From NCBI GenBank assembly GCA_028751875.1, contig CM054143.1, forward strand, positions 65,069,269 to 65,133,268: 64,000 nt of DNA. Reading direction: 5' to 3'. The notes beneath the pieces were generated by a model that worked only from the letters and a program-made list of their open reading frames with translations, did no database searches and was not told where the DNA came from. Position 1 is the stretch's first letter; each line of letters opens with the position of its first letter. The position numbers and the translations under genes are program-made. Source of the DNA: Rapana venosa (lineage: Eukaryota; Mollusca; Gastropoda; Neogastropoda; Muricidae). Shown here in pieces: positions 14,331 through 48,852 of the stretch.

Positions 14331-14837
14331 GTTAATGACCTGAGCCATAGATATAAGAAATCAGAGTCTGAATCAGCAAAACAAACAACAACAACAACAT
14401 GAACACTGACCATTGTTGGCCCAGTATTAATAGCACCACTTGAAATTATGGCTTTTCACAATATCCATCACATAATCAGAACTGTATCACAGATTGCATT
14501 GTTTTCCCCTGATGCAAGAAATGAAGAATCAATACAGTCAGTAAGGCTGTGATTCTCACAACCAAGTTGTGCAGTTCTGGTACAGTAATATTGTATTCTC
14601 TTTCTCTCTCATATGCATGCAACAAACACCCACACACACTGCATTGTAGATAGTTAAGCATTCAACTGATCAGCCACAGACACTTCTTGCCCTGACTTCT
14701 CTCCCTAAACTCCTTGAGGAGTCACTGGGGACACTCCACAGACACTTCTCAGGCAATGTATTCAGGGCAGGTTGACCTGGCAGAGCCAATCCACCTCCTG
14801 GCAGTGGCCTCCTACATGCTGGTTGTGTTCATGACGT
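14331..14837. other. unrecognised sequence
   Basis: No exon or repeat recognised. It leads directly into the 30-bp array. Confidence 0.4.
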
Positions 14838-15689
14838 TCTGGGTGTGAGCTTTCACCATATCCACGTTCCAGGTATCAGCTTTCACCATATCCACGTTCT
14901 GGGTATCAGCTTTCACCATATCCACGTTCTGGGTATCAGCTTTCACCATATCCACGTTCCGGGTATCAGCTTTCACCATATCCACGTTCTGGGTATCAGC
15001 TTTCACCATATCCACGTTCTGGGTATCAGCTTTCACCATATCCACGTTCCGGGTATCAGCTTTCACCATATCCACGTTCTGGGTATCAGCTTTCACCATA
15101 TCCACGTTCTGGGTATCAGCTTTCACTATATCCACGTTCTGGGTATGAGCTTTCACTATATCCACGTTCTGGGTATGAGCTTTCACTATATCCACGTTCT
15201 GGGTATGAGCTTTCACTATATCCACGTTCTGGGTATGAGCTTTCACCATATCCACGTTCTGGGTATGAGCTTTCACCATATCCACATTCTGGGTATGAGC
15301 TTTCACTATATCCACGTTCTGGGTATGAGCTTTCACTATATCCACGTTCTGGGTATGAGCTTTCACTATATCCACGTTCTGGGTATGAGCTTTCACTATA
15401 TCCACGTTCTGGGTATGAGCTTTCACCATATCCACATTCTGGGTATGGGCTTTCATCATATCCACGGTCTGAGTATAGGCTTTCACCATATCCACGTTCT
15501 GAGTATAGGCTTTCACCATATCCACGTTCTGAGTATAGGCACATCCACAGCTTTCACCACATCCACATTCTGGGTATAGGCTTTCACCATATCCATGTTC
15601 TGAGTATAGGCTTTCACCACATCCACATTCTGGGTATAGGCTTTCACCACATCCACATTCTGGGTATAGGCTTTCACCATATCCATATT
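14838..15689. repeat. 30-bp minisatellite, about 28 copies
   Basis: Each unit contains GAGCTTTCAC(C/T)ATATCCACG followed by TTCTGGGTAT. Three sub-blocks differ at fixed positions (TATCAGC, TATGAGC and TATAGGC variants), showing block-wise expansion. Because the unit is divisible by three, open frames run along it on both strands. A SINE interrupts it, and degenerate units continue at 16176-16235. It lies 3 kb past the LDHD stop. Confidence 0.95.
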
Positions 15690-18778: not shown

Positions 18779-18947
18779 CTACAAGAAGATCTTGCCGGGG
18801 TTGAGGATGTAGTTGGGGTCGAAGGCCTGCTTGACCACTCTCATGACGGCCATGCCCTCAGGGCCCAGCTCCTTCTGCAGCAGCCCCTGCTTGCCCATGC
18901 CTATGCCGTGCTCCCCAGTGCAGGTCCCGTCCAGCTGCATGGCCAGG
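18779..18947 (-). CDS. LDHD: LDHD exon 12 (last coding exon)
   Basis: The acceptor GTTTCAG lies at 18948-18954. The exon completes a codon with one base, then encodes LAMQLDG, the conserved [11 protein letters not shown] motif and a C-terminus ending NPGKIFL before TAG (18781-18779). Human LDHD ends in a very similar MNPGKVL. Either version of exon 11 joins in frame. Confidence 0.95.
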
Positions 18948-21900
18948 CTGAAACCCACGGCCCTCAGGCATCAGTCCACAGCAGAGCAGTCATGTCTGCC
19001 GTGAGACACTGGCCAGTCATCAGACACTGACATGGGCAGTCATGCCATCAGGATGCAGATGAACAGAGGAAGAGGAAGAGAAGGAAGGACTGTTAGTCTA
19101 GGGGTAACGCGCCTGCCTAGAAAGCGAAAAGTCCAGGTCGGAAGTATGTGGTGGTTTGATCCCCATTTGAGCCAAAACCTTTTTCCCCATCCACTGGACG
19201 ATAAGTGGTGGTCTGGGTGCTAGTCTTTCAGAAGAGATGATAAACTGAGGTCCTGTGTGTTACACATGATTATTTAGTGCATGTAAAAGAACCCACGGCA
19301 ACAAGAGAGCTGTCCCTGGAAAAATTCTGTAGAAAAAAAGCTACTCTAATAGGGAAACAGGGAAACAAATACAGTTGCAGACAGGAAAAGGAAATTTTAC
19401 AAAATAATAGGTGGCGCTGCTCTTGTGGAAACACACTCTCCCCAGGAAGAGCAGCAACAAATTTCATGCAGAGAAATCTGCTGTGACTTAAAGTGGTATG
19501 ATAATGAAAAAGAAAAAAAAAGAAAAAAGAAGAGGGGGATGAAAGGAAGAAGATCTAAGAAGAAAAGGGAAGATTGATTAAAGTGAGGGGAAAAAGGAAA
19601 TAGAAATGTTGCAGAAAATGAGTACAGGTGTGGTCATTTATGATGTAAGTAAGTAAGTAAAGTGTCCCATAACCTATAAGGTCGTAGGGGAGCGAGGCGT
19701 CAGAGACCTCATTTCTCTAGGGCCAGCATATTGAGGGCGGCGCCCATCTCCTCTCCCTCGCTGCTTTACCTTCCCTGACCCTAAAGAGGGCAGGTACCCA
19801 TTTACAGCTGGGTGAACTGGGAGAACTGTACTGAAGCCAAGGCGCGCAAACGGTCACGCATCCAACTGGTAACCTCGCTCGACGCTGCTTAACTTGGCTG
19901 GGGGAAAGCGAGTGCTCCGACCACTGAGCTATCCCGTCCCCATTTATGATGAGAGCTGGATATAATGTGTGTGCGTGTGTGTACGTGTATGTGTGTGTGC
20001 ATGCGTGCGTGTGTGCATGCGTGCGTGTGTGCATGTGTGTGTGTGCATGTGTGTGTGCATGTGTGTGTGCATGTGTGTGTGTTTTGTCTGTTCGTTTGTT
20101 AGGAGGGGGTAGCACTAAAATATCACAGAAAATGCTGCAATGACCCTACATGATTGAATAAATAAAATTCTAAATAAATGAATAAACAGACTGCAGCAGA
20201 ACTAAACCATCGAAACAACAGAGCATTTATTTTACAAAAGACTCTTTATGATATATTCTTCAACCATTCAAATTCTCACTTTTCATTTTCTTCATCTACT
20301 TATCTATCTTCATACTCTTTATATACAATCTGTCATCTGATTAAATGCGCTGCCCTATGCTCTCACATAATCAAATGACAACTATAAAAATTAATTTGGT
20401 CTGTTTTTGCTCAAGATTAGTCTTAGTCTTTTCATATTTGGTTAACCCAACTATTACACTTGTGACTGACTGCAACAATGAACTGAAGTATGCAACAGAC
20501 AGACGTTCCAGCCGTAACTGGAGACAGCATTGTGTCGTGCAGCAAACACGCACACTGCCGGTTTTCTGTGGGGTTTTACCATTCCTCACCTGGAGCTCCA
20601 AGGTTCACCAATGGTGAGAGTTTTGCGTATGTGACTGTTTTTTCACCATCATTAGGGTAGCCACAATCCAGCTTCAGGGTTACAGCTAGGAACTGAAACT
20701 AACAATTTTGCCAGGACAGTCGGGAGGTACCTCCCAGCTCTTCCGATTTTCAACTGACACATGGGTTCTGTTGACATGCACAAGTCTGTAAGCACCTGGG
20801 CCTGACTGGTTTGGAGGCGAGTCCCCTCTGAAAGCTTGACAGTCAAACCAGTTTTCCCGTTCAAAACTGTGAATGTTAGAAACTGAACCCAGAACCCCAC
20901 AGTTCATTTGTTAGGCAGGCAAACGTCTAAACTGTCCTGCCACCTTCCTTCTTGCAATGTGTTTAAATGGCATTCTTCAGGTTTGCAACAACAAACAAAA
21001 ACTGTTTAAAAACTAACACACAAAAATCAACATGCTGTGATCAACATCAGGAGAGGCAAGACCAATGCAGAAAAAAACAAAAACTCACTTCTTCAGGTCA
21101 GCTTTATCATAGGACCACTGTTACCACACTACAGGGTAGAGCAAAAGATACTGAAATGTACTTTTAACAGGACAAAGTTCACTGACTTTTGCTCTCAGAG
21201 CCTAGTGATTTTTTTCTCTCTCTTAACTTTGGAATTCTTTGCAGGTAAATCCTTAGCTACCTTTCCCTTGCCTGTGTGAGTGTGTGTGTGTGTGAATGTG
21301 TGCATATGTGTGTGCATGCATGAATGCATGCATACGTGCGTGTGTGCACGCATGCATGTGTCAGTGAACACATGTAAATATTATATGGGTAAATGCTTAA
21401 GCCTGCTTTCTTTCAATTTTGACATGCATCAACTTGTTTTTCTCTCTAAAAATAAATAAAATGATTATCTAATAAAGCAGTTGTACACACAACAAAGAGG
21501 CATATTATATATCCATTACTCTACATTCACGTGAGGACTTCACCTCACATGAGGACACTCTCATGAGGCCACGGTTCCCAGAGTCTTTGACTTCCAACAG
21601 CGCTACCGCCTCCTCCCCTACCTCCGGCAGCAGCAGCAGCAGTGTTCATCATAAGACAGCAAGGCTTTTCCTCCCTCTGTTCCTGGGCTAGAGCTCCCAG
21701 GTTCAGCAGTGGCCAGACTTGGTGTATGTGACTGTTCGTTCATCAGGAAGCCACATTCTGACTTTGGGGATACAGTTGGGAATCAAACCTACCCATTTTC
21801 ATTTTGCCGGGACAGTCAGGAGGTACCTCCCTGCTCTTTCCAATTTTCAACTGCCGTTGGTTCTTTTGACATGCACAAGTCCTTAAACATACAGGTCTGA

Positions 21901-23247
21901 CTGCTTTAGAGTTTCTTCTGAAATAATTGACCTTCAGTTTATTTTTCCTGTCAAACTGGGAAGAAAGGACAAGGTGGGGATTCAAACCCAAAACCTCACA
22001 GTTACTTGTGAGGCCGGTGAATGTCTTAACCGCCCTGCCACCTTCCTAATAGATAATGCTTATTTTCGTTGGCGTTGTGCTGTGTCTAAATGGTGACTGG
22101 ATGTGTAACTTGTCACTGAAATGGCACTGAGCTGCAGTTTGGTTAGACTGCTTCACACTTCATTCCCACATCAGATGATATTCCGCGTTGTAGTAGCATG
22201 AGAAGAATCATCACTACACCAAGCAAACCTTTACACAACACAACTGAGTAAACGTCTGCAATATGAGAATTATTTGTGATGAGTTTTTGGGTATGACAGA
22301 CTTATGCACAATATGGAAATTGTTAGCTATGAGCATTTCTAATCTATTACGATGTCCTTGGGTATGATGGACTTACAGTGCCACGTCAGAGGAAAAGTCC
22401 TTGATCTGCTGAACCTGTTGCTCTGTGGCGTCAGTTCTCAAGACCACGCAGTGGAAATTGCCGTCACCCACATGGCCACATATCGGAGCTGTCAACACAT
22501 CAACCCACATCAACACACCTCACAGTGTTCTGTGCCAGGCTGCCTTCATACCATGGTGCCTGTGGCCAAGTCCTTCAGATGAAACTGTACACCCAAGGCC
22601 TAGCAGCAAACCCACTCACTCACTCACACACCGCGTCAGGCGTAAGTGTGTGTGTGTGTACATGTGCGAGCACGCGCGCAGGTGTGTATGAGTATGTGTG
22701 TGCGTGTGTATGTATATGTGCGTAATTTGTATTTTACAATGTATTATCTTATCGATTTTCCTCTTTTTACTGGTTTAACTTATTGGTAAATGTTGCAATA
22801 ATGTAGTATTTCAGTATAATCATTAAGAAATTTGTTTTTAGATAGATGGCTTGACGAAAAAAAGAAAATGTATTGCTTATTCAATGAACCATCTGGAAAT
22901 AAATATTTGACTTGACTTGACTCAGGCAGTCCTTAAAGCCCTGTTTCAGGGCTTTCCTCCAGCAGAATGGTGACTGCTTCCCTTCACACAATACAATACA
23001 CCCCCCACTTCCTCTTGCCTAGGAGAACAGAATGAGACAGGCTAAACAAACATAACAGCATCCATCAACACAACACATGCAGTCACTCACCTATGGGGCC
23101 TCACTACCTCCTGACAGTCACACTTCACCGAACACGTCAAGCAACACAAAATCCAAACACATCAGCCAAGGATAAAAACAATACAACCAACTCGGCATTC
23201 TTGGTTTGAAAACAGCTCCTCCCACCATGCAAAGCTCAAAAGCAAGG

Positions 23248-23303
<56 letters not shown>

Positions 23304-26300
23304 TGCCCCATGCAGGCAGTGAAGACTCTGAAAGCAAACTGCAGGCTCCCGACTCACAAACTGATTTCATGGCTCAGTTCTGTGATCAGTTTGGTCTGGT
23401 CGGGGCGATCACTCTCCATGTTAAGGAAGACGTGGAAATTACCGTCCCCCACATGCCCCACCATAGGGCCTGGTTACAGCATGGTTACAGCATGGTTACA
23501 GCATGTTACAAAGGACAGCATGTTACAATGGTTACAATGGATGGCATGTTACAATGGACAGCATGTTACAATGGACAAGGTGTTACAATGGTTACAATGG
23601 ACAGCATGTTACAATGGTTACAATGGACGGCATGTTACAATGGTTACAATGTTACAATGGAAAGCATGTTGCAATGGGCAGCATGTTACAATGTGCAGCA
23701 TGTTACAATGGATAGGTTACAATGGGCAGCATGTTACAATGGGCAGCATGTTACAATGGGCAGCATGTTACAATGGATAGGTTACAATGGATAGGTTACA
23801 ATGGATAGGTTATAATGGATAGGTTACAATGGATGGCATGCTACAATGGACAGCATGTTACAAAGGATAGGTTATAATGGGCAGGATGTTATACAGGGCC
23901 GGATGTAGTAATGGGCAGGATGTTATAATGTGCGGGATGTTATACAGGCCAGATGTTATAATGGGAAAGGATGCTACAATGGTCAGGACATAATAATGGG
24001 CCAGATATTATAATGGGCCGGATGTTATAAAAGGCCGGATGTTATAATGGGCCCGAAATTAGAATAGGCCGGATGTTAGAATGGGCCGGATGTTATAACG
24101 GGCCGGATGTTATAACAGGCCAGATGCCATAACGGGCAGGATGTTATAACGGGCAGGATGTTATAACGGGCAGGATGTTATAACGGGCAGGATGTTATAA
24201 TGGACCTGGGCCTGATGTTATAATGGGCCAGATGTTATAAATGGGCCGGGTTTTATAATGGGCTGGAAGCTATAATGGGCAGGATGTTATAACGGGCAGG
24301 ATGTTATAACGGGCAGGATGCTATATAATGGGCAGGATGCTATATAATGGGCAGGATGTTATAATGAGCAGGATGTTATAAAGGGCAGGATGTTATAAAG
24401 GGCAGGACGTTATAATGGGCAGGATGTTATAATGGGCCGGATGTTATAAATGGGCCAGATGCTATAATGGGCCAGATGCTATAATGGGCCGGATGTTATA
24501 AAGTGGGCAGGGTGTTATAATGGGCAGGATGTTATAATGGGCAGGATGTTATACAGGCAGGATGCTATACAGGCAGGATGTTATAATGGGACGGATGTTA
24601 TATAGTGGGCGGGATGTTATATGGTGGGTGGGATGTTATATGGTGGGCGGGATGTTATATAGTGGGGCGGATGTTATATAATGGGACGGATGTTATATAG
24701 TTGGCAGGATGTTATATAGTGGGGCGGATGTTATATAGTGGGCAGGATGCTATATAGTGGGGCGGATGTTATATAGTGGGGCGGATGTTATATAGTGGGA
24801 CGGATGTTTATATAGTGGGCGGGATGTTACATAGTGGGCCGGGTGTTATATAGTGGGGCGGATGTTATATAGTGGGACGGATATTATAATGGGCTGGATG
24901 TTATATAGTGGGCAGGTCGCTATATAGTGGGACGGATGTTATATGGTGGGACGGATATTTATATAGTGGGCCGGATGTTATATAATGGGTAGGATGCTAT
25001 ATAATGGGCCGGATGCTATATAGTGGGACGGATGCTATATAGTGGGATGGATGCTATATAGTGGGATGGATGCTATATAGTGGGATAGATGCTATATAGT
25101 GGGACGGATGCTATATAGTGGGACGGATGCTATATAGTGAAACGGATGTTATATAGTGGGGCGGATGTTTATATAGTGGGACGGATGCTATAAAGTGGGG
25201 CGGGTGTTATATAGTGGGGCGGATGTTATATAGTGGGACGGATGTTATATAGTGGGACGGATGCTATAAAAAGGGACGGATGCTATATAGTGGGACTAAT
25301 GTTATATAGTGGGACGGATGTTATATAGTGGGCAGATGTTATATGGTGGTCCGGATGTTATATAGTGGCAGATGTTATATGGTGGTCCGGATGTTATATA
25401 GTGGGCAGATGTTATATGGTGGTCCGGATGTTATATAGTGGGATGGATGTTATATAGTGGGCAGATGTTATATAGTGGGCAGATGTTATATGGTGGTCCG
25501 GATGTTATATAGTGGGCAGATGTTATATGGTGGTCCGGATGTTATATAGTGGGATGGATGTTATATAGTGGGCAGATGTTATATGGTGGTCCGGATGTTA
25601 TATAGTGGGATGGATGTTATATAGTGGGCAGGATGCTATATAGTGGGCCGGATGTTATATAGTGGGCAGGATGCTATACAGGCAGGATGTTATAATGGGC
25701 AGGATGCTATACAGGCAGGATGTTATAATGGGCAGGATGCTATACAGGCAGGATGTTATACAAGCAGGATGTTATACAAGCAGGATGTTATACAAGCAGG
25801 ATGTTATAATGGGCCGGATTATGGGCAGGATGTTATACAGGCAGGATGTTATACAGGCAGGTGTTATAATGGGCAGGATGTTATAATAATAATAATAATA
25901 TGGAATTTATATAGCGCCGAATCTTGTAAAACAAACAAATCGAAGCGCTTGCACTCAAATCATTTACGTGCATGCAACTTTCCTCAAATATAATAAAGAA
26001 CATATTTCAAATTTATGCACGTGTACACACACACACACACACACACACTTAGGAGATGAAGGATGCTGTTGAAAAGTAGAGACGGATATGAGGGGAAAGT
26101 GTCAGGTAGGAAATAAGTGTGTTTTGAGGCTGGATTTGAAGGTATCAAGTGAAGGTTTTTGGCGAAGTGAAAGGGAGACGTCATTCCATGTGGACGGACC
26201 AGAAACAGAAAAAGATCGACAGCCAACAGTGGTTTGTTTGAATCTGGGTGTTCGAAAGCACAAAGTATCTGCGGCTGAACGAAGGGAACAGGATGGAGTG

Positions 26301-29300
26301 TACAGGTGAAGACAGTTACAAAGATAAGATGGTGCAGATTTGTGGAGACATTTGAAACAGAGGGTATTGATTTTATACCTCAGTCTTTGTGAGACTGGCA
26401 GCCAGTGAAGAGATCGCAGAAGAGGAGTGATGTGTTCGGATTTTTTCTTTCTTAGGACCAGTCGAGCTGCAGAGTTTTGTATGCGTTGAAGAGAGTGGAT
26501 GGATGATGCTGGTAGGCCAGCCAAAAGATAATTACAGTAGTCTAAACGTGAAAGAATGAGAGATGTGACGAGCTTGGAAGTTGCATCAGTGGACAGATAC
26601 TTGCGAATCGCGCTTATATGCGCTTCAATTTGTTTGTTTATTTACAAGATTCAGCGCTATATAAATTCCATATATTATTATTATTATGCGCCGTAGTTGA
26701 TAGTAGCAAGACTGGCAGGTCTGGGTGATGAATTTTTTCATAGAGAGTGTGTTGTCAAGAACTACACCTAGATACTTCACAGAGTTGGACAAAGGAACTG
26801 ACACACTGCCGAATTCTATTGATGTTGTTGTGATGGAGGAAAGTTTATGTTGGGTCCCTATGAGCATGGCTTCGGTTTTATCGGCATTAAGTTGTAACTT
26901 GTTCTGAGTCATCCAGTTTTGAATGTCTTGAAGGCAGTAGGACATATTTGTCAGGAGGGAAGGCAAGTTTTCAACAGTATCACTGCACTGAAGCTGAGTG
27001 TCATCGGCATAGAAATGATGATCAATATGGTGGTTGTTTATTATACGTTAGAGTGGAGCAGTGTAGAGAGTAAAGAGAACGGGGCCCAGGACCGATCCCT
27101 GTGGGACTCCACATTCCATTTTGACAGATTTTGATTGAATTTTGTTTACAATAACTTTCTGGAATCTGTCTGTGAGGTATGAAGTAAACCAGGTGAGGGC
27201 TGTGCTATTAATACAGAACGTATTTTGGAGGCGAGAAAGAAGAATTGAGTGATCTATAGTGTCGAAGGCTGCAGATAAGTCAAGAAGAGTGAGGAGGGAG
27301 ATTTTTCCTGCATCAGAAGCAAGTAGAACAAAAGAAAAAAAAAAAAGAAAAAAAAGGGTGGCGCTGCTCTTGTGGTGATGCGCTCTCCCCGGGGAGAGCA
27401 GCCCGAATTTCATGCAGAGAAATCTCGTGACTTAAAGTGGTATAAAATAAAATAAATAAATAAAGAAGTGTATCTAAAGTATGGACTAGGGTGGTTTCGG
27501 TGCTGTGGTTGGGGCGATAGGCAGACTGAAAAGTGGGAAGGAGATCATTGGAATGAAGGTGACTGTTGAGCTGTTTGAGAACAACTTTTTCTAGTACTTT
27601 AGAGACAAAGGGTAAGTTTGAGACAGGTCTATAATTTTTCAGAATGTTGGGATCGAGGTCGTGCTTTTTCAGTAGAGGTGTGACTATTGCGGTTTTAAGA
27701 GCTTGTGGAAAATTTCCTGACACAAGAGATGAGTTTACTATTTTAGTGATAATAGGTACAAGTTGTGGAAGGCATTGTGAGAAAACAGGAGCAGGTATGG
27801 GATCGAGGTTGCATGATTTTATAGTCATTTCCTTCAGAATTGTCATGATTTCTTTTTCACTTGTGGAACAGAAGGAAAAGAGAGGAGTGCCAGTGAACTG
27901 GGGATCAGGAGGTGCAGGCTGGAAATGAGTCTGATCCAGTCTGGAGCGTATGTTGTGGACTTTGTCTGAAAAGAAGGCAGAAAAGATAGATGGAAGTTCA
28001 GACAGGCTGTGGGTGGTAGGCAGAGGAATTGTTTTTGCAGACCCAAGGAGATTTGAGGTGAGGGAAAAAAGAGATTTTATGGATGTAGCGCAGAGAACTT
28101 GGGAAGAGAAGTATTCTGTCTTTGCTGAATGGATTAAGAGTTTGACTTTGTTTTTATTTGTTTTATACAGGCAGGATGTTATAATGGGCAGGATGTTATA
28201 CAGGCAGGATGTTATACAGGCAGGATGTTATAATGGGCAGGATGTTATAATGGGCAGGATGTTATAATGGGCCGGATGTTATAATGGGCAGGATGTTATA
28301 ATGGGCAGGATGGTTACAATGGACAGCATGGTGTGACAAGCACAAACACATAAATTCATATCAACTTCATTCAAATTTTCAGGGCTCATGTACGCACTAA
28401 ACACACACACACACACACACACGCAGAGCACATACTCTATGATTGGCACAAACTTACCTATCAGGTTTGCTTTCTTAATCATCTCTTTTGCCTTGACAAC
28501 AGCTTCAGGTAAATTGGATATGGGGACACACACATCTGTGCTGTAGGCCTGAAAACAAAGCAAACAAACACGAACCAATCACACAATCCAAAACAACACT
28601 ACACATTACGTCTTTTTTTCCCCATTCCCCAGCTAGAGCCCCAAGGTTCACCAATGGCGAGCATGTGCGCATATGACCGCTGCTGCCTGCCATGAAGGTA
28701 GCCATATTCCGACTTCATGGATCATGTAAAACAAAATCTAAAGTATGACACCAGTGTGCATGAGTTTTTAAAAATTTTAACTTCCATTTCTACTGGCACG
28801 CAATGGCCTACTCTTCCAACAAGCAGAACAGGTTTTAACATGTGCACAAGATGTTCTGCGTGCGTTCACATACCGGACCTTGGTTCACAGTCTTATCTGA
28901 CAGACTTTTGGGGAAGTGGAGTCAGTAATGATGTTAACCCCTGGGAAAAATTCCCCATGAACAGATGACTTTTCCCTAGTGGAGATGCTGGGGGGCCTGT
29001 CAGTATAAACAGCATCCTCACCTGGAAAATCTGTGCTAGGAATTCCCAATTTTCTAGCCCTCTCTTTCTTTCTGCCTTGTTCCTTTTCTTCCTGCCACCT
29101 CCTTCTTGACTATTTTCTGCCTGCTTGGTCCTTTCTCCTGCCTTTTTTCCAGAGAGACTTAAAAGATAACAATTCTCTCCTATGCCAAAGTCGAATGCAC
29201 TGGGCCTGACTTGTCAGGTGCTTAGTGGCATCGTAACGCACATCCACTCATATGACAGCACCCTAGTTGCTGTCTGAGCATTCAAAGAAGAAGACCCGGT

Positions 29301-31440
29301 GATTTGGTGGTGGATCAAACCCAGGCCATCAAATCACATACAGTAACACTCTAACCACAAGGCTATCCCATCCCCATGCCATTCATAACTACTTCAGACA
29401 ACTTTTAAAAAACAAAACAAAACCTAAAGCTTTCCCACCCTACCTTGTGAAGAAGAGTTCAGGCCATAGTGTGCTGACAGAAAAATGGAAGATATGATAA
29501 ACACTTGTGGAGGAAAACTAATCCAGGTAACCACTTACAACTTCTCCATCATTTTGTAAATGACTTAACAATTATTCCATTTATAAACATATACATTTTT
29601 TAACTCTAGAAAATTATACCTTTCACTGACGGCACCTAAGGCATTTTTTAGTAAGAACCACGCCTTTGGCTTGACCACTCGTGATCCAGAGGTCGCGGGT
29701 TCGATCCCCACTCGGCTCGGTGTTGTGTCCTTGGGAAAGACACTTACTCCTATTTTCCTCACTCCACCCAGGTGTACAAGTGGGTACCAGCTCTGCTGGG
29801 GAAGTATCTGGCAACAGACTAGCGTCCTGTCACAGGGGTGGTGAAAAACCATCAGTTCGCTTAACGCTACAGAAACCGGGATAAGCTCCGGCTCTATGGG
29901 CCTTCTGGCTCGAAAGAACATACTTTTTGGCTTGACCCAACTCAAATTTCAGCTCCTGGATGAGCCTTTGTCAGAGGTCCATGGTGATTAATGCTTCACC
30001 TTCAGCTGTACCTTGCAGCGAGACGCTTTTCATAATTCAGAAGTGTCAATCGCATTCATGAGAATATTTGATATTCTTATGGCCTGTTAAAGCTGCCATC
30101 GAAAGATGATGACAAAAAGAGAAAGAAAATATGCCCAAAATAACTAAATAAATAAATAAAAAGATACAGAAAGAAAGAAAGAAAGAAAGGGAGGAAGGAA
30201 GGAAGGAAGGCAGGAAGGAAGGAAGGAAAGGAAAAGAAAGGAAAGGAAAGGAAAGGAAAGGAAGGAAGGAAAGGAAGGAAGAAAGGAAGAAAGGAAGGAA
30301 GGAAGGAAAGAAGGAAGGAAGGAAGGGAGGAAGAAGGAAGGAAGGAAATGAAGGAAGGAGGAAGGAAGGAAGGAAGGAAGGAAGGAAGGAAGGAAGGAAG
30401 GAAGGAAGGAAAGGAAGGAAGAAGGAAGAAAGGAAGGAAAGAAGGAAGGAAGGAAGGAAGGAAGGAAGGAAGAAAGGAAAGGAAGGAAGGAAAGAAGGAA
30501 GGAAGGAAAGGAGAAGGAAGGAAGGAAGGAAGGAAGGAAAGAAGAGGAAGGAGGAAGAAGAAGGAAGGAAGGAAGGAAGGAAGGAGGAGGAAGGAAGGAG
30601 GAAGGAAGGAAGAGGAAGGAAAGGAAGGAAGGAAGGAGGAAGGAAGGAAGGAAGGAAGGAAGGAAGGAAGGAAGGAAGGAGGAAGGAAGGAAGGAAGGAA
30701 GGAAGGAACAAGTGCTTATTCCATTATCCTCAAAATAAAAGAATGAAATAAAAAATCAGATAAAACACATACACACACACGATCACTGTTGGCATTTTGC
30801 TTCAAAGACAGCTGTTAACTCATGACGACGCACACATGATAACATCCAGATGTGCTCAGCACTGAACAAAGCAGAATGCATTATTTCCAAGTCAGAGGGA
30901 AGAATTCTTCCACATGGTTATAGGAAGGAAGGAAGGAAGGAAGGAAGGAGGAAGGAAGGAAGGAAGGAGGAAGGATAAACAGCTGACCCTGGAGCCGGGC
31001 ACGAGGGCTAGAGAGGCGTACAGCAAATCGTGCCGTGCCCTCCACAGTCGGTTCCTCTCCTCAATATCTGAGGCCCACTGGAAGTCACTGCCTCCGTTCC
31101 AACCTGCTATCTCCTCTGCACACATCCACCCCCTTATATCACCAACACTGCTGCACTACAGGACGCCAACAAGAGAGAGACAGAGAGGGAGAGAGGGAGA
31201 GAGACAGACAGACAGAGACACACAGAGAGAGATGCATCACTGACACAGAGACATGGCAGAATTACAGGAAGGAAGGAAGGAAGGAAGGAAGGAAGGAAGG
31301 AAGGAAGGAAGGAAGGAAGGAAGGAAACTACAGCCAGACTTTGGAGTAAGAAATCATTCTCACTTACACGCACGCACGCAAACATGCACACATGCACAAT
31401 CACTCACTCAGACACACACACATACACACACACTCACTCA

Positions 31441-31477
<37 letters not shown>

Positions 31478-34041
31478 GTGGGTTTGATTCTCATTCAAGA
31501 GGATTTTTCTGCTGGAGTTAACATCAGTGCAGACTCCACTCTCCCCAAAGTCCTTCAGATGAGACTATAAACCGAGGCCCCATGTACGAATGCACACAGA
31601 ACATCTTGCGCTCAAGTTAAAACCTGTTCCGCTTGTGTGCCAGTGGGAACGGATGACAAAATTTACAAAACTGCATACACACAGGGACTGGATGAAAAAA
31701 AGCACACAAGTGCTTATTCCGTTATCCTCAAAATAAAAGAATAAAATAAAAAATCAGATAAAACACATACACACACACGATCACTGTTGGCATTTTGCTT
31801 CAAAGACAGCTGTTAACTCATGACGACGCACACATGATAACATCCAGATGTGCTCAGCACTGAACAAAGCAGAATGCATTATTTCCAAGTCAGAGGGAAG
31901 AATTCTTCCACATGGTTACATCTTTACACCATTCAGGGTGATGGCAGATTTCTCCACTCCTGCCTTCCTTTCAGGATTCAGGGCAAACAGCGGTGATGCC
32001 GGTCAGAGCGCTCACCCACTGTCTCCACCTGCTCTCTGACAGAGGTGGGGGAGCCGTGGAACTCCAGGAACAAGGACGGCGCCTCCTTCATGCTGAACTT
32101 GCTGTAACTGTTGAAAGCGCCGATCGCCACCTCGTCCAGGAACTCTGAAAAACACAGAGGACAGGACATGGCTGATGTGACTCTGGAGGGAGGGAGGTGA
32201 CACAGAGAGAGCACCAGCCAGATGACCTCACTGATGCCTCCCTTCACTCCTGGAGGAGTTGTTGGGGCCAGCACTGCACTGATCTCTTCAGGCAGGCTGT
32301 CATGTCATGGGCACGCTGAACCTGGCAGAGCCCATCCCTCTGCATGCTGCATGCTGGGTAGGGTATGTTTGTGTTGTCCATCCATGTCATGGGCAGAACA
32401 TGCATGTCTGACTCAGGTGTCTGTTCCAGATTTTCCCTCTGGTGTTCATATCAGTGTAGACTTCATTCCCCTGAAAGTCCTTTGGATGAGACGATAAACC
32501 AAGGTCCTGAGTGTGATTGCACACAGAACATCTTGTGCACCCATTAAAACCAGTTACACTATTCAAAAGAGTAGGCCATAGTGTGCCAGGGGGAACGGAT
32601 GACAAAACTGCACGCATACTGACAAAACTGCACGCATACTGACAAAACTGCACGCATACTGACAAAACTGCACGCGTACTGACAAAACTGCACGCATACT
32701 GACAAAACTGCACGCATACTGACAAAACTGCATGCGTACTGGAATGTGGCTACCTTAATGGTGGGTAAACAGTTGCAAACACAAAATCAATCTCACCATG
32801 GGTGCACCAACAACAAAAAGAAGCAAAAAACAGAAACAAAAAGACAAACCAATAACCAATGACTCAGCAGACTCTAACCTGCAGCAAGAAAGACAAACGG
32901 GGGTCTGCACACATAATGACGTGCTCTCCTCGGGGGACCAGCCACACACAGAAATCCTCCGGGACTTATACACAGGGGGACGGTGTAGCCTAGTGGTCAG
33001 AACATTGCACTCGCAATCTGAAAACCCATGTTTGAATCTCGTTAAAGGGGATTTTTTTCCTCTGGAGTTAACCTCAGTGCCAACTCCACCCTCCCCAAAA
33101 ATCATTTGGATGAGACTATAAACTGAGGCACCGTGTGCGAACGCACACACAAGCGCTTCGATTTGTTTGTCTTTTTACAAGATTCAGCGCTATATAAATT
33201 CCATATATTATTATTATTATTATTAACATCTTGCGCACACATTAAATCCTGTTCCACTTTTCAAAAGAGAAGGCCATTGTGTGCTGGTGGGAACAGATGA
33301 CAAAATTTACAAAACCACAAACACACAGGGACTGGTCATAAAAAAGCACATGAGTGCTCATTCCATTATCGATTAAAAAAAAAAAAAAAAGAATATTGCT
33401 ATACAATGCAGTTACAATTCTATTTAATACAATAACGTTCTACATAATCTCCAGTATTATTAATACAATACAGTACAATACAATATAATTCAATAAATAT
33501 TTTTCATTATCATTAAGACAATACAGTATCATATGATTCAGTAATATCTTTCTTTTCACTCATACAATACAATTCAGTACACTGTAGTAAAATACAATAC
33601 AGCTCAAGACAAGACAATTATATCCAATACAATACAGAAAGCACAAAACAAAACAATACAAAACAAACACAAATACCACACCAGTACCCTTCGGATGCAA
33701 CTATAAACCAAGGCCAAGCCTGCCAACACACACACACACACACAACTTGCTCACACGTTAAAACCTGTTCCATTTTTAGGGAGAGAAGGCCACTGTGTGC
33801 CAGTGGGAATGGATGACAAAATTTACAAAACTGTATACACTGGATGTATAATAAAAAAAACACCCACCACATTAATGCGCATTCCATTTCCCTTGAAATA
33901 AAAGAACAAATGATCATAATACTCTTACCAATTCGAGCAATGGGCACACCACTCTGCAAGACTTGAACGGTGGTGTCCACAGCTTCCTGTACGCCTTGAA
34001 AATGAACCACCGCTGACATCACCTGCATATCACACACACAT

Positions 34042-34095
<54 letters not shown>

Positions 34096-37000
34096 CATCA
34101 CAACGTCTGATCTGACAATGCCATCACTGTACTCACTATCAACACAATCGTCTCTTGTACGGAATAGACCTGAGATGTGAGGTAGACTAGATTCATACTG
34201 TACTATATTAACAACGGTCTCTGGATATATCATGCACAAGTATGCAGGAGGGGGGAATAGTCAAACGGTTATGACTAACAGCACGGAACTTTTTATCTCA
34301 TGTTAGCGGAAAGCATGAGGTTTGAGCCTCTACTGAGGTGTCCGTTTTAGAGGATCCTGATGCCCGAGTTCACAGCGGCATCACCTCGAAGCTCTTCCCC
34401 TGCCAGTCCTTCAGTTGCCACTATGAACCACAGTCCAATACGTACACCTGTCCCTGTGGGACAAGCACCACCCACACACAGGGATAAAGCCATCCATTAT
34501 TTACACGCACGCACGCACATGCACATGCACACACACACACACACACACACACACACCACGGACACAACCATACCCATATACACAACACAAAAAGTGACAA
34601 CACAAAACTCATAATCGTTACTGTTTTCTTCTAGTAGGACTGTTACCAAACGACCCATGCTATCCATGATCCTTTTTCAGGGCCGACAACTCAGTCAGCT
34701 ACAGGGTGGACAACTCACTAACAAATTCAGGGCAGAAATTTGCTCATTAAGTCAGGGCAGACAACTCACTCACTCACTGATTTAGAGCAGACAACTCACT
34801 CATTCACAAATTCAGGGCAGACAGACAGCCTCACAGATTGAGGGTAGAGAGACAACTCACAGATTGAAGGTAGACAACTCACAGATTGAGGTAGGAGACA
34901 ACTCACAGATTGAGGGAAGAGAGACAACTCACAGATTGAGGGTAGAGAGACAACTCACAGATTGAGGGTAGAGAGACAACTCACAGATTGAGGGTAGACA
35001 AATCACAGATTGAGGGTAGAGAGACAACTCACAGATTGAGGGCAGAGAGACAAATCACAGATTGAGGGTAGACAACTCACAGATTGAGGGTAGAGAGACA
35101 ACTCACAGATTGAAGGTAGACAACTCACAGATTGAGGGTAGAGAGACAACTCACACATTGAGGGTAGAGAGACAACTCACAGATTGAGGGTAGAGAGACA
35201 ACTCACAGATTGAGGGCAGAGAGACAACTCACAGATTGAGGGTAGACAAATCACAGATTGAGGGTAGAGAGACAACTCACAGATTGGACAACTCACAGAT
35301 TGAAGGTAGACAAATCACAGGTTGAGGGTAGAGAGACAACTCACAGATTGAAAATAGACAACTCACAGATTGAAGGTAGGGAGACAACTCACAGATTGAA
35401 GGTAGGGAGACAACTCACAGATTGAGGGTAGAGAGAAACTCACAGATTGAGGGTAGAGAGAGAACAACTCACTCATTCACAGATTGAGGGTAGACAACTC
35501 ACTCACTCACAGATTGAGGGCAAACAACTCACAGATTGAGGGCAAACAACTCACAGATTGAGGGCAAACAACTCACAGATTCAGGGATGGCATGGAGTTT
35601 GATGATGGCCTTGGTGATGATGCCCAGCGTGCCCTCTGACCCCACAAAGAGGTTGGTGAGGTTGTAACCCGCTGCCGTCTTTCTGCAACATACAGACCTA
35701 GACCTTGGTCTTTGTCCATCACCACTAGCTACTGCTCTGCCCCAGAGCTCAATCAAGTCATCCTTACTCTGGGAGACTTTCACCACCAACAGATTGCATG
35801 CATGCTGGGTATGGTGATGTGTCATCCGTATCACCACCAATAGCTGGCCTACTAAAGGTGGATGACTTTTTAACGTGTGTGCAAGATGTTGTGTGTGCAT
35901 TGGCAAACAGGACCTTGGTTTATAGCCTCACCCTGAAAGACTTTTTGTGGGAGTGGAGTGAGTACTGGTGTAACCTCCAGGAGGAACACGCCTTGCTAAC
36001 TTGCTAAGACTTGAATCTGTAGCCTTAGTTACTCTCAGAGAGGAGCTGAATGCTCTAACCACAAGACTCTCTCCTCCCCTGGGATAAAATACAGACAATC
36101 AGCTCTCTGATTTGTTGCTTTACAAGATTCAGCGCTATATAAATTCCATTTATTATTATTATTATTATTTTTTTATTATTATTATGATTATTATTCCAGG
36201 AACAGACAATCAATCAGTGATTCCAGGTACAGACAATCAATCAGTGATTCCAGGTACAGACAATCAATCAGTGATTCCAGGAACAGACAATCAATCAGTG
36301 ATACCAGGAACAGACAATCAATCAGTGATACCAGGAACAGACAATCAATCAGTGATTCCAGGAACAGACAATCAATCAGCGATTCCAGGTACAGACAATC
36401 AATCAGTGATTCCAGGAACAGACAATCAATCAAAGATTCCAGGAACAGACAATCAATCAGTGATTCCAGGTACAGACAATCAATCAGTGATTCCAGGTAC
36501 AGACAATCAATCAGTGATTCCAGGAACAGACAATCAATCAGTGATTCCAGGAACAGACAATCAATCAGTGATTCCAGGAACAGACAATCAATCAGTGATA
36601 CCAGGTACAGACAATCAATCAGTGATTCCAGGTACAGACAATCAATCAGTGATTCCAGGAACAGACAATCAATCAGTGATACCAGGTACAGACAATCAAT
36701 CAGTGATTCCAGGAACAGACAATCAATCAGTGATTCCAGGTACAGACAATCAATCAGTGATTCCAGGTACAGACAATCAATCAGTGATTCCAGGAATAAC
36801 CAATCAGTGATTCCAGGTACAGACAATCAATCAGTGATTCCAGGAACAGACAATCAATCGGTGATCCCAGGAACAGATAATCTGTGATTCCAGGAACAGA
36901 AATCAATCGGTGATTCCAGGTACAGACAATCTGTGATTCCAGGAACAGACAATCTGTGATTCCAGGAAGAGACAATCTGTGATTCCAGGAACAGACAATC

Positions 37001-40000
37001 AATCAGCGATTCCAGGAACAGACAATCAATCAGTGATTCCAGGTACAGACAATCAATCAGTGATTCCAGGCAGGAACAGACAATCAATCAGCGATTCAAG
37101 GAACAGACAATCATAAATTCCATACACCCCCTGCATGCTGTAATAAAAGAAAAAAAATTGAAAAAAAGGAAGAAATGTTCATTTACGGTCTGCCATGCAG
37201 AATTTTACTTCTTTTTTTTTTTTGTATGTTGGAAACAAGTTTTCAGGCAAATGATTTTTTTTTAAAAAGCTCTGATATTTAAAAGAGTCTTTTCAGTTAG
37301 CTTGAATATATGCCGATTATGAATGAAGATTTCTTGACTGTTTAATCCATTTGAAAATAAAGGGGAGGGGATGAGGGGGGAGGGCAGTGTCTAGTGGTTA
37401 GACCACTGCACTCTTTACCTGACGGCCCAAGTCTGAACCACCACTGAGGCACCTGTTCAAGGGGATTTTCCCCCTGCAGTTCACATCAGTATTGACCCCA
37501 CTCCCCCAGAAATCTCTTCATTAAAGACTTGAGTGAATGCATGCAGAACAGACCCGTTCCACTTTTTGGAAGAGTAGGCAATTTGACGCTGGTAGAAATG
37601 GATGAGAATTTTTTTTTTAATGCACGCATACTGGTGTCAGGTTTAGACATCGTCCCTTGATGCAGGATGAAAATGGCCACATGTGCAAAATCTCACCATT
37701 AGTAAACCTTCGAGTTCTTGCTGAGGAACAAAACAACAACAAAAACCCAGTCCCAACATCAAGTTTGGTCTTTCCATTTTTTTGTTTTTTAATTACAAAT
37801 TGTATTTTGTTTTGTTTTCAATCCTGATTAATCCATGAGACAGTTCGTAACAGGCACTGTTTGGGGATATTTTGTTACATGAATTATATACATTTTTAAA
37901 AAGTTCCTTATTTCGATATTTTGTTTGAAAAATTTTCTTTGTTACTTTTTGCTAAAAAATCTTTAAAGTATATTTACATAATCAAAAACAGCCGACAGCA
38001 GAAATGAAAACAAAACCAAAAAAAGAAGAAAACTAAATAAAAACAAAGAAAGATAAATCAAACAAGTTTGCAATCCAAAAGAAGAAATCAAACGATTTGT
38101 TAAAAAAATTTTTAATGACGTTGTCATAACAACAACTACAATTTAGATATTTTTTAAAAGAAAGTATTTAAACAAACTAAAAATATGTGAATACAAATTT
38201 TTCGAAAACATTCAACCTAGCAGAAGAGAATTACGGGACCTACACGCAGCGCTTCCCTTTGCCCGACGTCCAGAACACATTGCCCTCCGCCCCCACCACT
38301 TCCAAGTTCAGCGTGTTTTCTCGCATGGTGCCGTAGCGCACAGCGTTGGTCCCCGAGGCACTGGTGGCACACATCCCGCCCAGAGAGGCATCAGCTCCGG
38401 GATCTGACACACCCAACACAATGGAATGCACGACCAGGCCTGTCTGAGACATTGGCGTTTTGTTGGTTTCTCTTCTTTGGCTACAGCTCCAAGGTTCACC
38501 TATGGTGAGATTTTACGAATGCAACCATCCACACATAACTTTAGGCAGCCCCTTTTTTCACCTAAGCTTGTCTAAACTCAACGCCAGTGTGCATGCGTCG
38601 CGTTTTTTTGTAATTTTTTTTTTTTTACATTTTGTTGTCTATTTCTACCAGCATGCAATGGCCTACTCTTCCAAAAGGTGGAACGGGTTTTAACATGTGC
38701 ACAAGACGTTCAACATGCATTTGTACAGGGGACCTCAGTTTATAGTCTCATACAAAGGATATTATTGGGGGAAGCAAAGTCTGTATGGATATTAACTCCA
38801 GGGAAAAAAATCTGTTCAAACAGGCGTCTCACTGGTGGTGGTGGTGGCTCAAACCCGTGACACCAGATTGCGAGCTCAATGATGTAACCACCAGGCTACC
38901 CCGCCCCCTACCTTCTACCTACCTCACTTTCATTCACCGTCAATTTTTAAAAAAGCTCCCCGAGCCGCCCAACCCCCTTCACCCCAACCCCTCCTCCCCT
39001 GGGATTGTGTGTGACTGAAAGCACTGAGCACTGCATGCTCTGTACTGACCTATAATACAGGAAAAGTTAGCACTGCTCTGTACTGACCTATACTACAGGA
39101 AAAGTCAGCACTGCTCTGTACTGACCTATACTACAGGAAAAGTCAGCACTGCTCTGTACTGACCTATACTACAGGAAAAGTCAGCACTGCTCTGTACTGA
39201 CCAATACTACAGGAAAAGTCAGCACTGCTCTGTACTGACCTATACTACAGGAAAAGTCAGCACTGCTCTGTACTGACCAATACTACAGGAAAAGTCAGCA
39301 CTTCATGCTCTGTACTGACCTATACTACAGGAAAAGTCAGCACTGCTGCTGTACTGACCTATACTACAGGAAAAGTCAGCACTGCTCTGTACTGACCTAT
39401 ACTACAGGAAAAGTCAGCACTGCTCTGTACTGACCTATACTACAGGAAAAGTCAGCACTGCTCTGTACTGACCTATACTACAGGAAAAGTCAGCACCTGC
39501 TCTGTACTGACCTATACTACAGGAAAAGTCAGCACTGCTCTGTACTGACCTATACTACAGGAAAAGTCAGCACTGCTCTGTACTGACCTATACTACAGGA
39601 AAAGTCAGCACTGCTCTGTACTGACCTATACTACAGGAAAAGTCAGCACTACATGCTCTGTACTGACCTATACTACAGGAAAAGTCAGCACTGCTCTGTA
39701 CTGACCTATACTACAGGAAAAGTCAGCACTGCTCTGTACTGACCTATACTACAGGAAAAGTCAGCACTGCTCTGTACTGACCTATACTACAGGAAAAGTC
39801 AGCACTGCTCTGTACTGACCTATACTACAGGAAAAGTCAGCACTGCTCTGTACTGACCTATACTACAGGAAAAGTCAGCACTGCTCTGTACTGACCTATA
39901 CTACAGGAAAAGTCAGCACTGCTCTGTACTGACCTATACTACAGGAAAAGTCAGCACTGCATGCTCTGTACTGACCTATACTACAGGAAAAGTCAGCACT

Positions 40001-40826
40001 GCTCTGTACTGACCTATACTACAGGAAAAGTCAGCACTGCTCTGTACTGACCTATACTACAGGAAAAGTCAGCACTAAGCACTGCATGCTCTGTACTGAC
40101 CTATACTACAGGAAAAGTCAGCACTAAGCACTTCATGCTCTGTACCGACCTACAGGGAAAGTGAGTCCCGTGCCTCGTATGAAGGAGTTGAGTTCGCTGC
40201 GCGTCACTCCACATTCCACCGTGCAGTCGAAATCTTCATCGTTGACCTCCACCACCGTCTTCATCTGCCCCACGTCCAGACTCACACCCCCCTGAACAGA
40301 CAGAGGCCCGAGAGATCCAATCATGCTGCTTCAATTATAATGATGATGATAACAACAAATAATTTGTGACAGGCAGATGCGCTGTCCAATCATGCTGTTT
40401 CTATAAAAATAAGGATAACAACAAGCAATGTGTTTATTGCGCAGATCCATAAGCTCTACGCACTTCATAATATTTTCCCTATCCCCTAAACAGACTCCTC
40501 CTTCTCCACACACATGCGCGCATGCACGCACGAGCGCACACACACACACTCTCTCTTCTCATTCACAGACAAAACTCCACTCAAAGTGACATGATACACA
40601 GATCTACACGGGAGAGGAATCTGGCTCAATGATCAGCAGGACCTACCATGACAGAGTTGACACCCCCTTCCAGCCCTGTGCCGGTGCCGAAGGTCACCAG
40701 GGGGATGTGGTTCTGGTTGCACATCCCTGCCACCCTGCTCACATGCTCCACTGTCTTTGCAAACACCACCACATCTGGCATGTGGGCCCTGCACACACAC
40801 GCACACACACACACACACCAACACAC

Positions 40827-40863
<37 letters not shown>

Positions 40864-43800
40864 GGGACATTCAATTATTGGAATCTCTGACAGCCAGACT
40901 GTGAGTCAGCGACAGTCTTCTTCTTTCTTCAGCCTTCCCCATTGGATCATATTGTACTGTATTGTATTCCATTGTATTGTATTGTATACCACTTTATGTC
41001 ACGGCAAAAATCTTTGTGTGAAATATGGGCTGCTCTCCCTGGAGAGAGTGCATCGCCACAAGAGCAGCGCCACCCATTAACTTGTTTCATTTTCATGTCT
41101 GCATGTGTAGTTGTTTCCCTATCAGAGTGGTAATTCTTTTTTCTTTTAACAGATTTGCCAGGGTCAACTCTCTTGTTGCCATGGGCTCTTTTAATTGTGC
41201 TAAATGTGTGTTGCACACAGGACCTCCGTTTATCATCTCATCCAAAAGATTTGCACCCAGACCACCACTCATGGTCTAGTGAAGTTTCGAGCACAAACGG
41301 GGATTGAACCACCACACACTTCAAACCTGGACTTTTCGCTTTCTAGGCAGGTGCGTTACCTCTAGACCACCGATCCACCAATATGTAGTGCCTGGTCTTC
41401 CTTCTCCTGTGCTGGAGACTCTGCAGGAGGTCTGCCTGCTGCTGGCCTAGGCTGACACATTCCAGCTTCAGAGCAGCTCATGACCAGTGGAGCCTTTGAC
41501 CCCTCTTGGCCGAGGATGCTGAGAACCAGATTTGTTACCATGCTGGTCATCCATGCCTATGCCACGTTCACTTGAGGCTTGAGGCTGTACCCCCACCCCC
41601 ACCCCCCACCCACCCCCAGGAGAATAATAATAATAATAATAATGTATGGAATTTATATAGCGCTGAATCTTGTAAAGCAACAAATCAAAGCGCTCAGATG
41701 ATTTTTAAAAAAAATTTTTTATACCCACAACATAAGACTGATAGAGTGGAAGACAGATCTATCTCTACAGAGCAGTGATTAAACTGGGTTGTTGTTTTCT
41801 GTTGCTGTTCCTCAGCTAGAGCTCCGAGGTTCACCGATGCTGAGACTTTGCATATCTTCAAGACTGTTGTTACCCACCACGAAGGCCCAGCTTCATGGAC
41901 TGTATGCTGGGTATATTCCTGTTTCCATAACCCAACACACACCGACATAAGCTGTGGAATCTTTGACATGCTTATTTGACCTTCTGCATACATGCGTATA
42001 CACAGAGAGAATTAAGGCACTGGCAGGTCTGCACTTGAAGTTGACTCAGGAGATCGTAAAAATCCCCACCCTTAATTCACCACATGCAAACACTGAGATT
42101 CAAACCTACAGCTTCCTGGACCCATGGGACTGAAGTCAAACAGTCTTAACCACTCAGCTATAGACAGGTTCTGTCTGAACTGGGAGCCAAGTGTAAATCA
42201 CCCACTCATCTCCAAGGTGCGAGTTCACTGGTCTGAATCTCTCTTCAAGCCAGATTTGGTCTCCATTCACAAGACTATGAGCTGAATGGTGGTCTGGGTG
42301 CTAGTCTTTTTGGACAAGATGATAAACTGAGGTCTTGTGTATAACACACATTCAGCACAGTGTTAAACATGTGACAAAAAAATAAAGCTTCCATAACAAA
42401 ATCCTGTAGGAAAAAAAGCTGTTCAGATTATTATGGAAAAACACACACACACAGAGCAACACACAAAAAAGGGGGGGGATACATTGCCAAGTACCATGTG
42501 GAAATAAAACTCAGTCATGACTTCACACTCACACACACACACAACACACACAACACACAAACAACACCACACACAATGCGCATGCATACACACACACACA
42601 CACACAAAACACACAGAACATAAGTACTTTTCAGGTATAATCTTAATCTCAAGACACTTATTTGACCCCCCAAAATATCTTACCCCCAAAAAAATAATAA
42701 TAAAGGACAAACAAATAAAACAATCAACCCAACAAAACATGATATAATCCTAAACTGACTTATGGTGGGATTCATCGTGTGAGTGATGTTCACGGGCAGC
42801 CTTTGCTGTTGTCACGTTGCTTTTGCCCACAGCGCCACTCAAATCTTTCAGAAATCCATCTGTCACCTTCCCATACTCTGCTGCCTGTCAGGGAAAAAAC
42901 ATTCTTTTATAAAGTAAACAAGCAAAACCAATAACAACAAACCACGGACACATGAGTCATAATGCTGGAACATGTAAATGACAAACAAACGGATACATTA
43001 CTAATTTATATGTATTCAAATGAATGAATAAAAGAAATGATGATGATCATATCATAAAAGTCAATGCTGATGTCAGCCTATGTGACAACACGCATGCAAT
43101 ATCATCAGTCAGACCACAGACCACTAGGAAGTTGGTTCAATTCTTCTTCTTCCTCAGCAAACACTCAGGCAGCAACTATTGTTGTCTGTCATATGAGCAA
43201 AAATAGGTTCTGCTGCCATTAACTTAAGCACCTGACAAATCAGGCCCAGCACATCCAACGTTAATGTGGGAGAGAATTATCTTTTTTTTAAAGTCTTTCT
43301 GGAAAAGAGGCAAAAGACTGGACCAAGAAGGAAGAAAATACAAAAGAAGAGTGACAGGAAGAAAAGGAACAAGGTGGAAACAAAACCAGAGATAGAAAAG
43401 AAGGAACGCCTAACAGAGAATTTCCCAAAGGCAAGGACGCTGTTTATACTGACAGGCCCCCAGCATCCCCATTGAGGAGACTGTTCGTTTATTTATTTTA
43501 TTCTTTTATTTCAAGGATAATGGAATAAACACTTATGTGATTTTTTTTCATCCACTCCAGTCCCCGTGTGTATGCAGTTTTGTCACTTTTGTCATCCGTT
43601 CCCATCAGCACACAATGGCCTACTCTTCTGAAAAGCAGAACAGGTCTTAACATGTGCGCAAGATGTTCTGTATGCATTAGCACACAGGACCTCGGTTTAT
43701 AGTCTCATCCAAAGGACTTTTGGGGAGAGTGGAATCAGCACTGATGTTAAATCCAGAGGAAAAGTTCTCTTGAACAAGAATTGAAGGAAGGTGGCAGGAT

Positions 43801-47316: not shown

Positions 47317-47427
47317 CTTTTTTTTCAAATTCCAATACCTAGGTCTTCACTCACACTGCAAGTGGACCAATAACTCTTTTTTTTCAAATTCCAATACCTA
47401 GGTCTTCACTCACACTGCAAGTGGACC
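47317..47427. repeat. 55-bp tandem duplication at a LINE 3' end
   Basis: CAAATTCCAATACCTAGGTC and its flanks occur twice, about 55 bp apart. The segment includes the last codons of the LINE ORF. Confidence 0.85.
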
Positions 47428-48255: not shown

Positions 48256-48852
48256 GATCACTTACATCGATATTTGAGCCTGGATACACATCTCACAGCG
48301 TCATATTTTTGGCATGAAAGCCATAAAAACAATCGTACATGTTCAAATATAGCGTCCATCTTGGGAAAAATTGGGGGGGGGGGTCCTCAAGAACTTGCCA
48401 CAAACACGTGGGCAGTCTCGTTGCTTCTATTTTCACGATATTTGAAGCGAGATTGGCGGGAATTTCGAATGTATGAACGCGCTGAGTGACGGTCACGTCG
48501 CCCGCCGTTTTGGGACGCTATGCCCAGCAAAGGGTTGAATGATATTCAAACCCAGGTCAGCGGATCATGAGCGCAATGCGCACCACCAGGCTATATTCCC
48601 CCCCCATAATAATATATTTAGACATGACTGGTTAATTTATTATTTCATGCCTTGTGCCATCCGTATTACCAGAATTTGTGAACAACTTGGTCACTTCTGG
48701 TGGTTCTTCAAGTGCACTGCTGGTCAAGAGTGTTAAAAAGTGAACTTTTTCAAGGGTTTCAAACTGATTTACCAGTTGTCTGTAGAAAAGGATGAAAAAC
48801 TAGATCATTAACATGGAGTCAATATTTATTCTGTTTTGTTGTTTTCTTTCAG
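48256..48852. other. RPL14 intron 1, remainder
   Basis: A short tRNA-like SINE head trace in reverse near 48545-48595 (CAAACCCAGGTCAGCGGATC). Otherwise nothing recognised. Confidence 0.4.

Follow-up and report, generated by a model that had tools for sequence, protein, structure and literature searches.

A putative pair of mutually exclusive exons in the LDHD gene of Rapana venosa, predicted to alter the substrate pocket

To our knowledge, few mutually exclusive exon pairs are known within the catalytic core of metabolic enzymes. Here, a candidate pair is described in the gene for LDHD, a mitochondrial FAD- and Mn-dependent D-2-hydroxyacid dehydrogenase, in a stretch of 64,000 nucleotides (nt) from the gastropod Rapana venosa (assembly GCA_028751875.1, contig CM054143.1, positions 65,069,269 to 65,133,268), the whole of which is referred to as the window. 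Comparable pairs have been described in other metabolic enzymes. COQ2, an enzyme of the quinone pathway, has two internal exons of equal length, 6a and 6e (134 nt in C. elegans), of which one or the other is used; the swap remodels the core of the enzyme, changes an invariant Phe to Leu and switches the substrate (PMC7434440, PMC8659336). Such COQ2 pairs are reported from nematodes, other helminths, annelids and molluscs (PMC7434440, PMC8659336), and in C. elegans the pair determines which quinone is used in anaerobic electron transport (PMC7434440). OGDH, a mitochondrial dehydrogenase of the 2-oxoglutarate complex, has the mutually exclusive exons 4a and 4b, which set its Ca sensitivity (PMC7969005). 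Exons 9 and 10 of PKM form a further mutually exclusive pair, the choice between them altering both activity and regulation of the enzyme (PMC13296549).

The LDHD gene lies on the minus strand of the window, where exons 2 to 12 span 42884-18779; exon numbers are those of an earlier note on this DNA. Exon 10 (28458..28548, 91 nt) ends in phase 1 and is the upstream partner of two versions of exon 11, namely 11a (23358..23469) and 11b (22377..22488), which are separated by an intron of 869 nt (22489..23357). Their common downstream partner is exon 12 (18779..18947, 169 nt), the last coding exon, which contains Thr440, Glu442, His443 and the stop codon (residues are numbered as in mouse LDHD throughout). 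As the earlier note had described, both versions are 112 nt long, open and preceded by an AG acceptor, with the donors GTGAGT (11a) and GTAAGT (11b), and both are entered after phase 1 and left in phase 2, an arrangement in which the use of both or of neither breaks the frame. Each encodes 38 residues, the outer codons being split, and with either version the frame is continuous from exon 2 to the stop (465 residues). When both exons are joined, a stop falls within 11b, 87 nt ahead of the last junction, a position from which nonsense-mediated decay is expected. When both are skipped, exon 12 is frameshifted and a stop arises 47 nt into it, with loss of Glu442 and His443. The frame thus enforces the use of one or the other, as had been proposed, and in four other molluscs the paired isoforms are distinguished by exon 11 only.

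The nine residues GHVGDGNFH are common to 11a and 11b and make up most of the 13 that the two share, 25 of the 38 being unlike, so that the earlier remark that almost all other residues differ is a fair one. At the nucleotide level, 53 of 112 positions are identical. Within the nine codons of the motif there are three differences, all at silent third positions, and none of the 18 first and second positions is changed, whereas 53 of the 81 positions in the remaining 27 whole codons are unlike. The combination of purely silent change in the motif with heavy divergence elsewhere indicates that both copies are old and that both have been held to the motif. The statement that mammalian LDHD is closer to 11b was borne out: the mouse enzyme reads HCILL in this region, and the mouse-like protein P0061 matches 11b with an E value of 2e-6 and 11a with one of 3e-4.

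In tblastn searches of the window with the exon peptides, 11a and 11b match each other (E values of 7e-6 and 2e-6), and nothing besides the two exons was found in the window at E below 0.5. Exon peptides from the snail Batillaria gave three extra short matches with E values from 0.008 to 0.28, those at 53222 and 62409 being without the surrounding motif and the third lying at 51490 (E 0.28). Chance similarity of the two exons was rejected on the basis of these searches. When eight LDHD proteins and four exon peptides were used as tblastn queries, exon 11 was not found a third time in the window, nor any other exon a second time; duplication of the whole LDHD gene within the window was likewise rejected, exon 11 alone being doubled there. 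The sequence evidence supports the view that exon 11 of LDHD has been doubled in tandem and that the copies would be mutually exclusive by frame. In agreement with the earlier note, no description of mutually exclusive LDHD exons was found in the open-licence literature, where a search for LDHD together with mutually exclusive exons gave a sole LDHD passage, which concerns RNA editing.

Related proteins were collected in two database searches, each giving the best 120 of 8000 scored candidates, for a total of 227 listed proteins; pairs in other species are accordingly known from protein records and not from gene DNA. In a tree of the protein body (35 proteins, exon 11 removed), the window gene pairs with P0211 of Babylonia areolata (support 100/99), and the two fall within a set of seven that includes Batillaria, Pomacea and Littorina (100/98); the bivalves were unresolved in this tree. 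The snails that group with the window gene (Babylonia, Batillaria, Pomacea and Littorina) are caenogastropods, and the placement makes a caenogastropod origin of the window most likely. Two forms of LDHD, here called a and b after the exons that they resemble, are present in four molluscs. In Pecten maximus (P0133/P0143) and Saccostrea cucullata (P0141/P0149) the two proteins have 0 of 457 mismatches outside exon 11, carry the labels isoform X1 and X2, and come from contigs of the same length; public records thus already hold LDHD isoform models. The Batillaria attramentaria pair (P0001/P0033) has 0 of 343 mismatches outside the exon, P0033 being without one stretch of P0001, and the Mytilus galloprovincialis pair (P0153/P0005) has a single mismatch in 330, at the residue with which the exon begins. 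Counting the window's own, all five pairs cease to differ at residue 430 and agree at 431; an extra residue is present in form b of Pecten, Saccostrea and Mytilus. The earlier note had suggested that paired 112-nt exons be sought in related genomes: in protein records of four species, the pairing is borne out as two forms.

The mollusc set was the author's own list of 51 database proteins and the two window isoforms, with 14 rows assigned by similarity. Form a is the commoner, 41 of 51 listed molluscs fitting its pattern. Between some sister species the body of the protein is well conserved and the variable part of exon 11 is not, with identities of 82% and 28% for Patella and Lottia, 83% and 28% for Argonauta and Octopus, and 77% and 24% for Gigantopelta and Haliotis. 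This suggests that limpets, the kin of abalone and cephalopods may also have both forms, the records showing one each. As a control, protein pairs were compared that share at least 250 columns of the body and are at least 80% identical over it. Identity in the exon's variable part is 50% or more in all 1656 non-mollusc pairs and in 39 of the 57 mollusc pairs (which include the window's own), with 18 of 57 below; the pairs share members and hence are not independent. At body identities of 70 to 80%, some non-mollusc pairs also drop to 31% in the exon, which limits the contrast to close pairs.

Other candidate pairs were rejected as products of separate genes, namely Priapulus P0032/P0184 (141 of 436 mismatches outside the exon), Ptychodera P0164/P0176 (159 of 454) and the second Bradybaena protein, P0165 (164 of 451). 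P0211 of Babylonia, annotated as isoform X2, has no exon 11 and ends in KDAKIVAWP, which is consistent with a product of skipping. The full motif is present twice in just one of the 227 listed proteins, P0124 (Rotaria sp.), where the copies lie 462 residues apart, and in none is it present in tandem; P0124, with its two LDHD C-terminal motifs, appears to be a fused or tandem form and was left out of the alignment.

The nearest solved structure by sequence is that of mouse LDHD (PDB 8jdc; 335.6 bits, E 2.4e-99). In the mouse enzyme, Mn is bound by His398, His405 and Glu442 and the substrate by Arg347 and His443, while Val101, Trp351, Ser365 and Ile407 form the hydrophobic subsite B, which is also where LDHD, D2HGDH and GlcD differ (PMC10589216). 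When aligned with mouse, exon 11 holds positions 398, 405 and 407, and both window isoforms retain Arg347, Ser365, His398, His405, Glu442 and His443. At position 351, in exon 9, the window has Leu; of 51 mollusc rows (window isoforms included), 50 have Leu, Val or Ile and the other has a gap. Position 407 is Phe in 11a and Val in 11b; the mouse enzyme thus differs from the window gene at both places, with Trp351 and Ile407 in place of Leu351 and Phe or Val407.

Residue 407 was then followed across eight contrasts between forms, five of them within one gene or species and three between sister species chosen after the results had been seen. Form a has Phe in all eight, and form b has Val twice, Leu four times and Ala twice. 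Positions 406, 409, 410, 422 and 428 likewise differ in 8/8 contrasts, while 398, 400-403 and 405 are changed in none. The figure of Phe in 42 of 42 form-a rows (41 database proteins and window 11a) was not used, as the selecting pattern itself included Phe407 and the count would be circular. Outside form a, Phe407 is present in 10 of the 177 remaining rows, the mollusc protein P0165 among them. On this evidence, Phe407 would narrow the pocket in form a, and aliphatic residues at both 351 and 407 would widen it in form b.

We consider it probable, at about 0.78, that exon 11 of this LDHD gene is a mutually exclusive switch that retunes the substrate range of the enzyme. According to this proposal, exon 11 of a caenogastropod LDHD would have been duplicated in tandem, and the mRNA would take either 11a or 11b; we infer that splicing is regulated and that both mRNAs are made in Rapana venosa. 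As the Mn ligands His398 and His405 are encoded by each copy, a complete enzyme would result from either mRNA. The swap would exchange the stretch that follows the metal site, foremost residue 407 on the pocket wall, from Phe in 11a to Val in 11b. Since this residue lies in the substrate pocket, a change is expected in which D-2-hydroxyacids fit, the 11b enzyme presumably having the roomier pocket, also through Leu instead of Trp at 351. The suggestion in the earlier note that the isoforms differ in substrate range has thereby gained a structural basis, in that the exon holds a residue of subsite B, while the change of substrate itself is inferred.

COQ2 is the closest parallel, and the proposed switch would work in a similar way, although the two enzymes are unrelated; the change of product in COQ2 was shown by exon deletion in C. 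elegans, whereas that proposed for LDHD is deduced from residues. A further difference is that the Phe form of LDHD is the commoner among the listed molluscs and that mouse resembles the other form. PKM is a mammalian case in which splicing regulators are known, and its isoforms act on the same substrates. In OGDH, distant branch points limit how long the intron between the two exons can be and thereby impose exclusivity (PMC7969005); the corresponding LDHD intron measures 869 nt. That length is not short enough for crowded splice signals to be an obvious cause of exclusivity, and this explanation was rejected, as was exclusivity through minor (U12) introns, the intron ends looking major-type when judged by eye. 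One candidate for RNA pairing was found in 21800-23900, an inverted repeat of 15 nt with 1279 nt between its arms, and the window contains no known RNA family at the curated threshold.

Several observations weigh against the proposed switch. The pocket change rests on a single mouse structure, and the Batillaria and Mytilus pairs are seen as proteins alone, which fits one gene or two near-identical genes. The 3' splice site of 11a adjoins a minisatellite and has 6 T's in 20 positions, and the exon may be weak or dying. The histories of the two forms are also less clear than a tree of the whole exon implies. In that tree (39 columns, few forks well supported), the 32 form-a rows fall together with one other row, seven of the nine form-b rows fall together, and window 11a and 11b are placed with forms a and b, respectively. 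Without columns 404-409 the forms are partly mixed, form a requiring 6 changes and form b 3 (means of 24.0 and 8.6 with shuffled labels), and window 11b is nearest to a form-a protein, P0002; window 11a is nearest to P0155 (form a), then to P0184 and P0139. With the full columns, there was no rejection of a single clade of all nine b exons (p 0.93), of a sister pair of the window's own two exons (p 0.79) or of a group that unites the two Pecten forms (p 0.62).

Window 11a is 56% identical to Batillaria a and 36% to Batillaria b; the corresponding values for 11b are 50% and 46%. The window pair and those of other molluscs are likely, though not proven, to be homologous. Either a single old pair has changed fast, or duplication has occurred repeatedly with the same change at 407; the latter, if true, would be even stronger evidence that residue 407 matters.

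The rival explanation that fares best holds that the switch is a choice by tissue or stage which mainly alters stability, binding partners or the amount of enzyme, the change at 407 being neutral. Many exon positions beyond 410 change as well, and the b exons vary so much (Batillaria b and Pomacea b share 34% identity in the variable part, with 79% in the body) that they look loosely constrained. A neutral 407 does not readily account for the replacement of Phe by a smaller aliphatic residue in every one of the eight contrasts, with 406, 409, 410, 422 and 428 changing alongside and the Mn ligands constant, and we regard this explanation as unlikely.

Somewhat less likely still is that this species uses only one of the copies and that the other, perhaps 11a, is a decaying relic. 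The minisatellite mentioned above (23471..25887, assigned to neither strand) ends at the acceptor of 11a and occupies much of the intron before it, its units measuring about 17-19 nt but 11 nt in the final part (overall range about 11 to 19 nt), and 11a has VFLN in place of the VFFP found in form a in the other contrasts. The acceptor itself is not distinctive in its weakness: in the 20 positions ahead of the last four acceptor bases there are 10 pyrimidines for 11a, 9 for 11b and 6-16 for the other ten exons, so that 11b and some other acceptors are no stronger. Despite their divergence at 53 of 81 positions, moreover, both copies are open, in phase and flanked by canonical splice ends, their motif changes are silent and both Mn ligands are retained in each, all of which speaks against the decay of one copy. 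It is highly improbable that two whole LDHD genes are interleaved or misjoined here or that the assembly is at fault, for although the related snail Babylonia has a second LDHD gene (P0121 beside P0211), exon 11 alone is doubled in the window, its copies lie 869 nt apart in one interval, and the Pecten and Saccostrea forms share identical bodies on contigs of the same length.

The remaining exons of the gene, all on the minus strand, are exon 2 (42760..42884, 125 nt), exon 3 (40647..40788, 142 nt), exon 4 (40150..40291, 142 nt), exon 5 (38244..38403, 160 nt), exon 6 (35577..35682, 106 nt), exon 7 (33929..34022, 94 nt), exon 8 (32016..32144, 129 nt) and exon 9 (30988..31115, 128 nt), the last of which holds Arg347 as well as position 351. 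No first exon encoding the presequence was identified. The two isoforms score 110 and 109.9 bits with FAD_binding_4 (PF01565) and 222.6 and 221.1 bits with FAD-oxidase_C (PF02913; cut-off 21.2). Some snails have two LDHD genes, as in Babylonia areolata (P0121/P0211, P0121 lying elsewhere in the same set of seven proteins) and Bradybaena similaris (P0134/P0165). A repeat block similar to the minisatellite is present at 28170-28330, after the exon 10 donor. Pieces of reverse transcriptase (RVT_1) were found on the minus strand at 26625-28227, in intron 10, and at 47384-48292, upstream of exon 2, two of the pieces scoring at least the curated cut-off and one slightly under it. Simple or tandem repeat arrays at 30100-30750, 14812-15687 and 36190-36850 give long repetitive open frames; two lie in LDHD introns and one downstream of the gene.

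Only D-lactate dehydrogenase activity is reported in several molluscs (PMC2570690, in which a word search for "splic" gave no match), and a D-lactate-specific lactate dehydrogenase is described from Littorina foot muscle (PMC3819915). D-lactate is therefore a plausible product of fermentation in need of clearance, and an oxidiser of D-lactate should matter to molluscs. We tentatively raise the possibility, though we rate it below even, of an old mollusc switch by which one LDHD gene gives a tight-pocket (Phe407) and a wide-pocket (Val, Leu or Ala407) mitochondrial enzyme, which would serve the clearance of fermentation D-lactate and the oxidation of bulkier D-2-hydroxyacids, respectively; the switch might follow oxygen supply, in parallel with that of COQ2. 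As the proposed switch affects a residue known to lie in the pocket of an enzyme whose structure is solved, it can be tested directly and cheaply, and a single LDHD gene may yield two enzymes with unlike substrate pockets.

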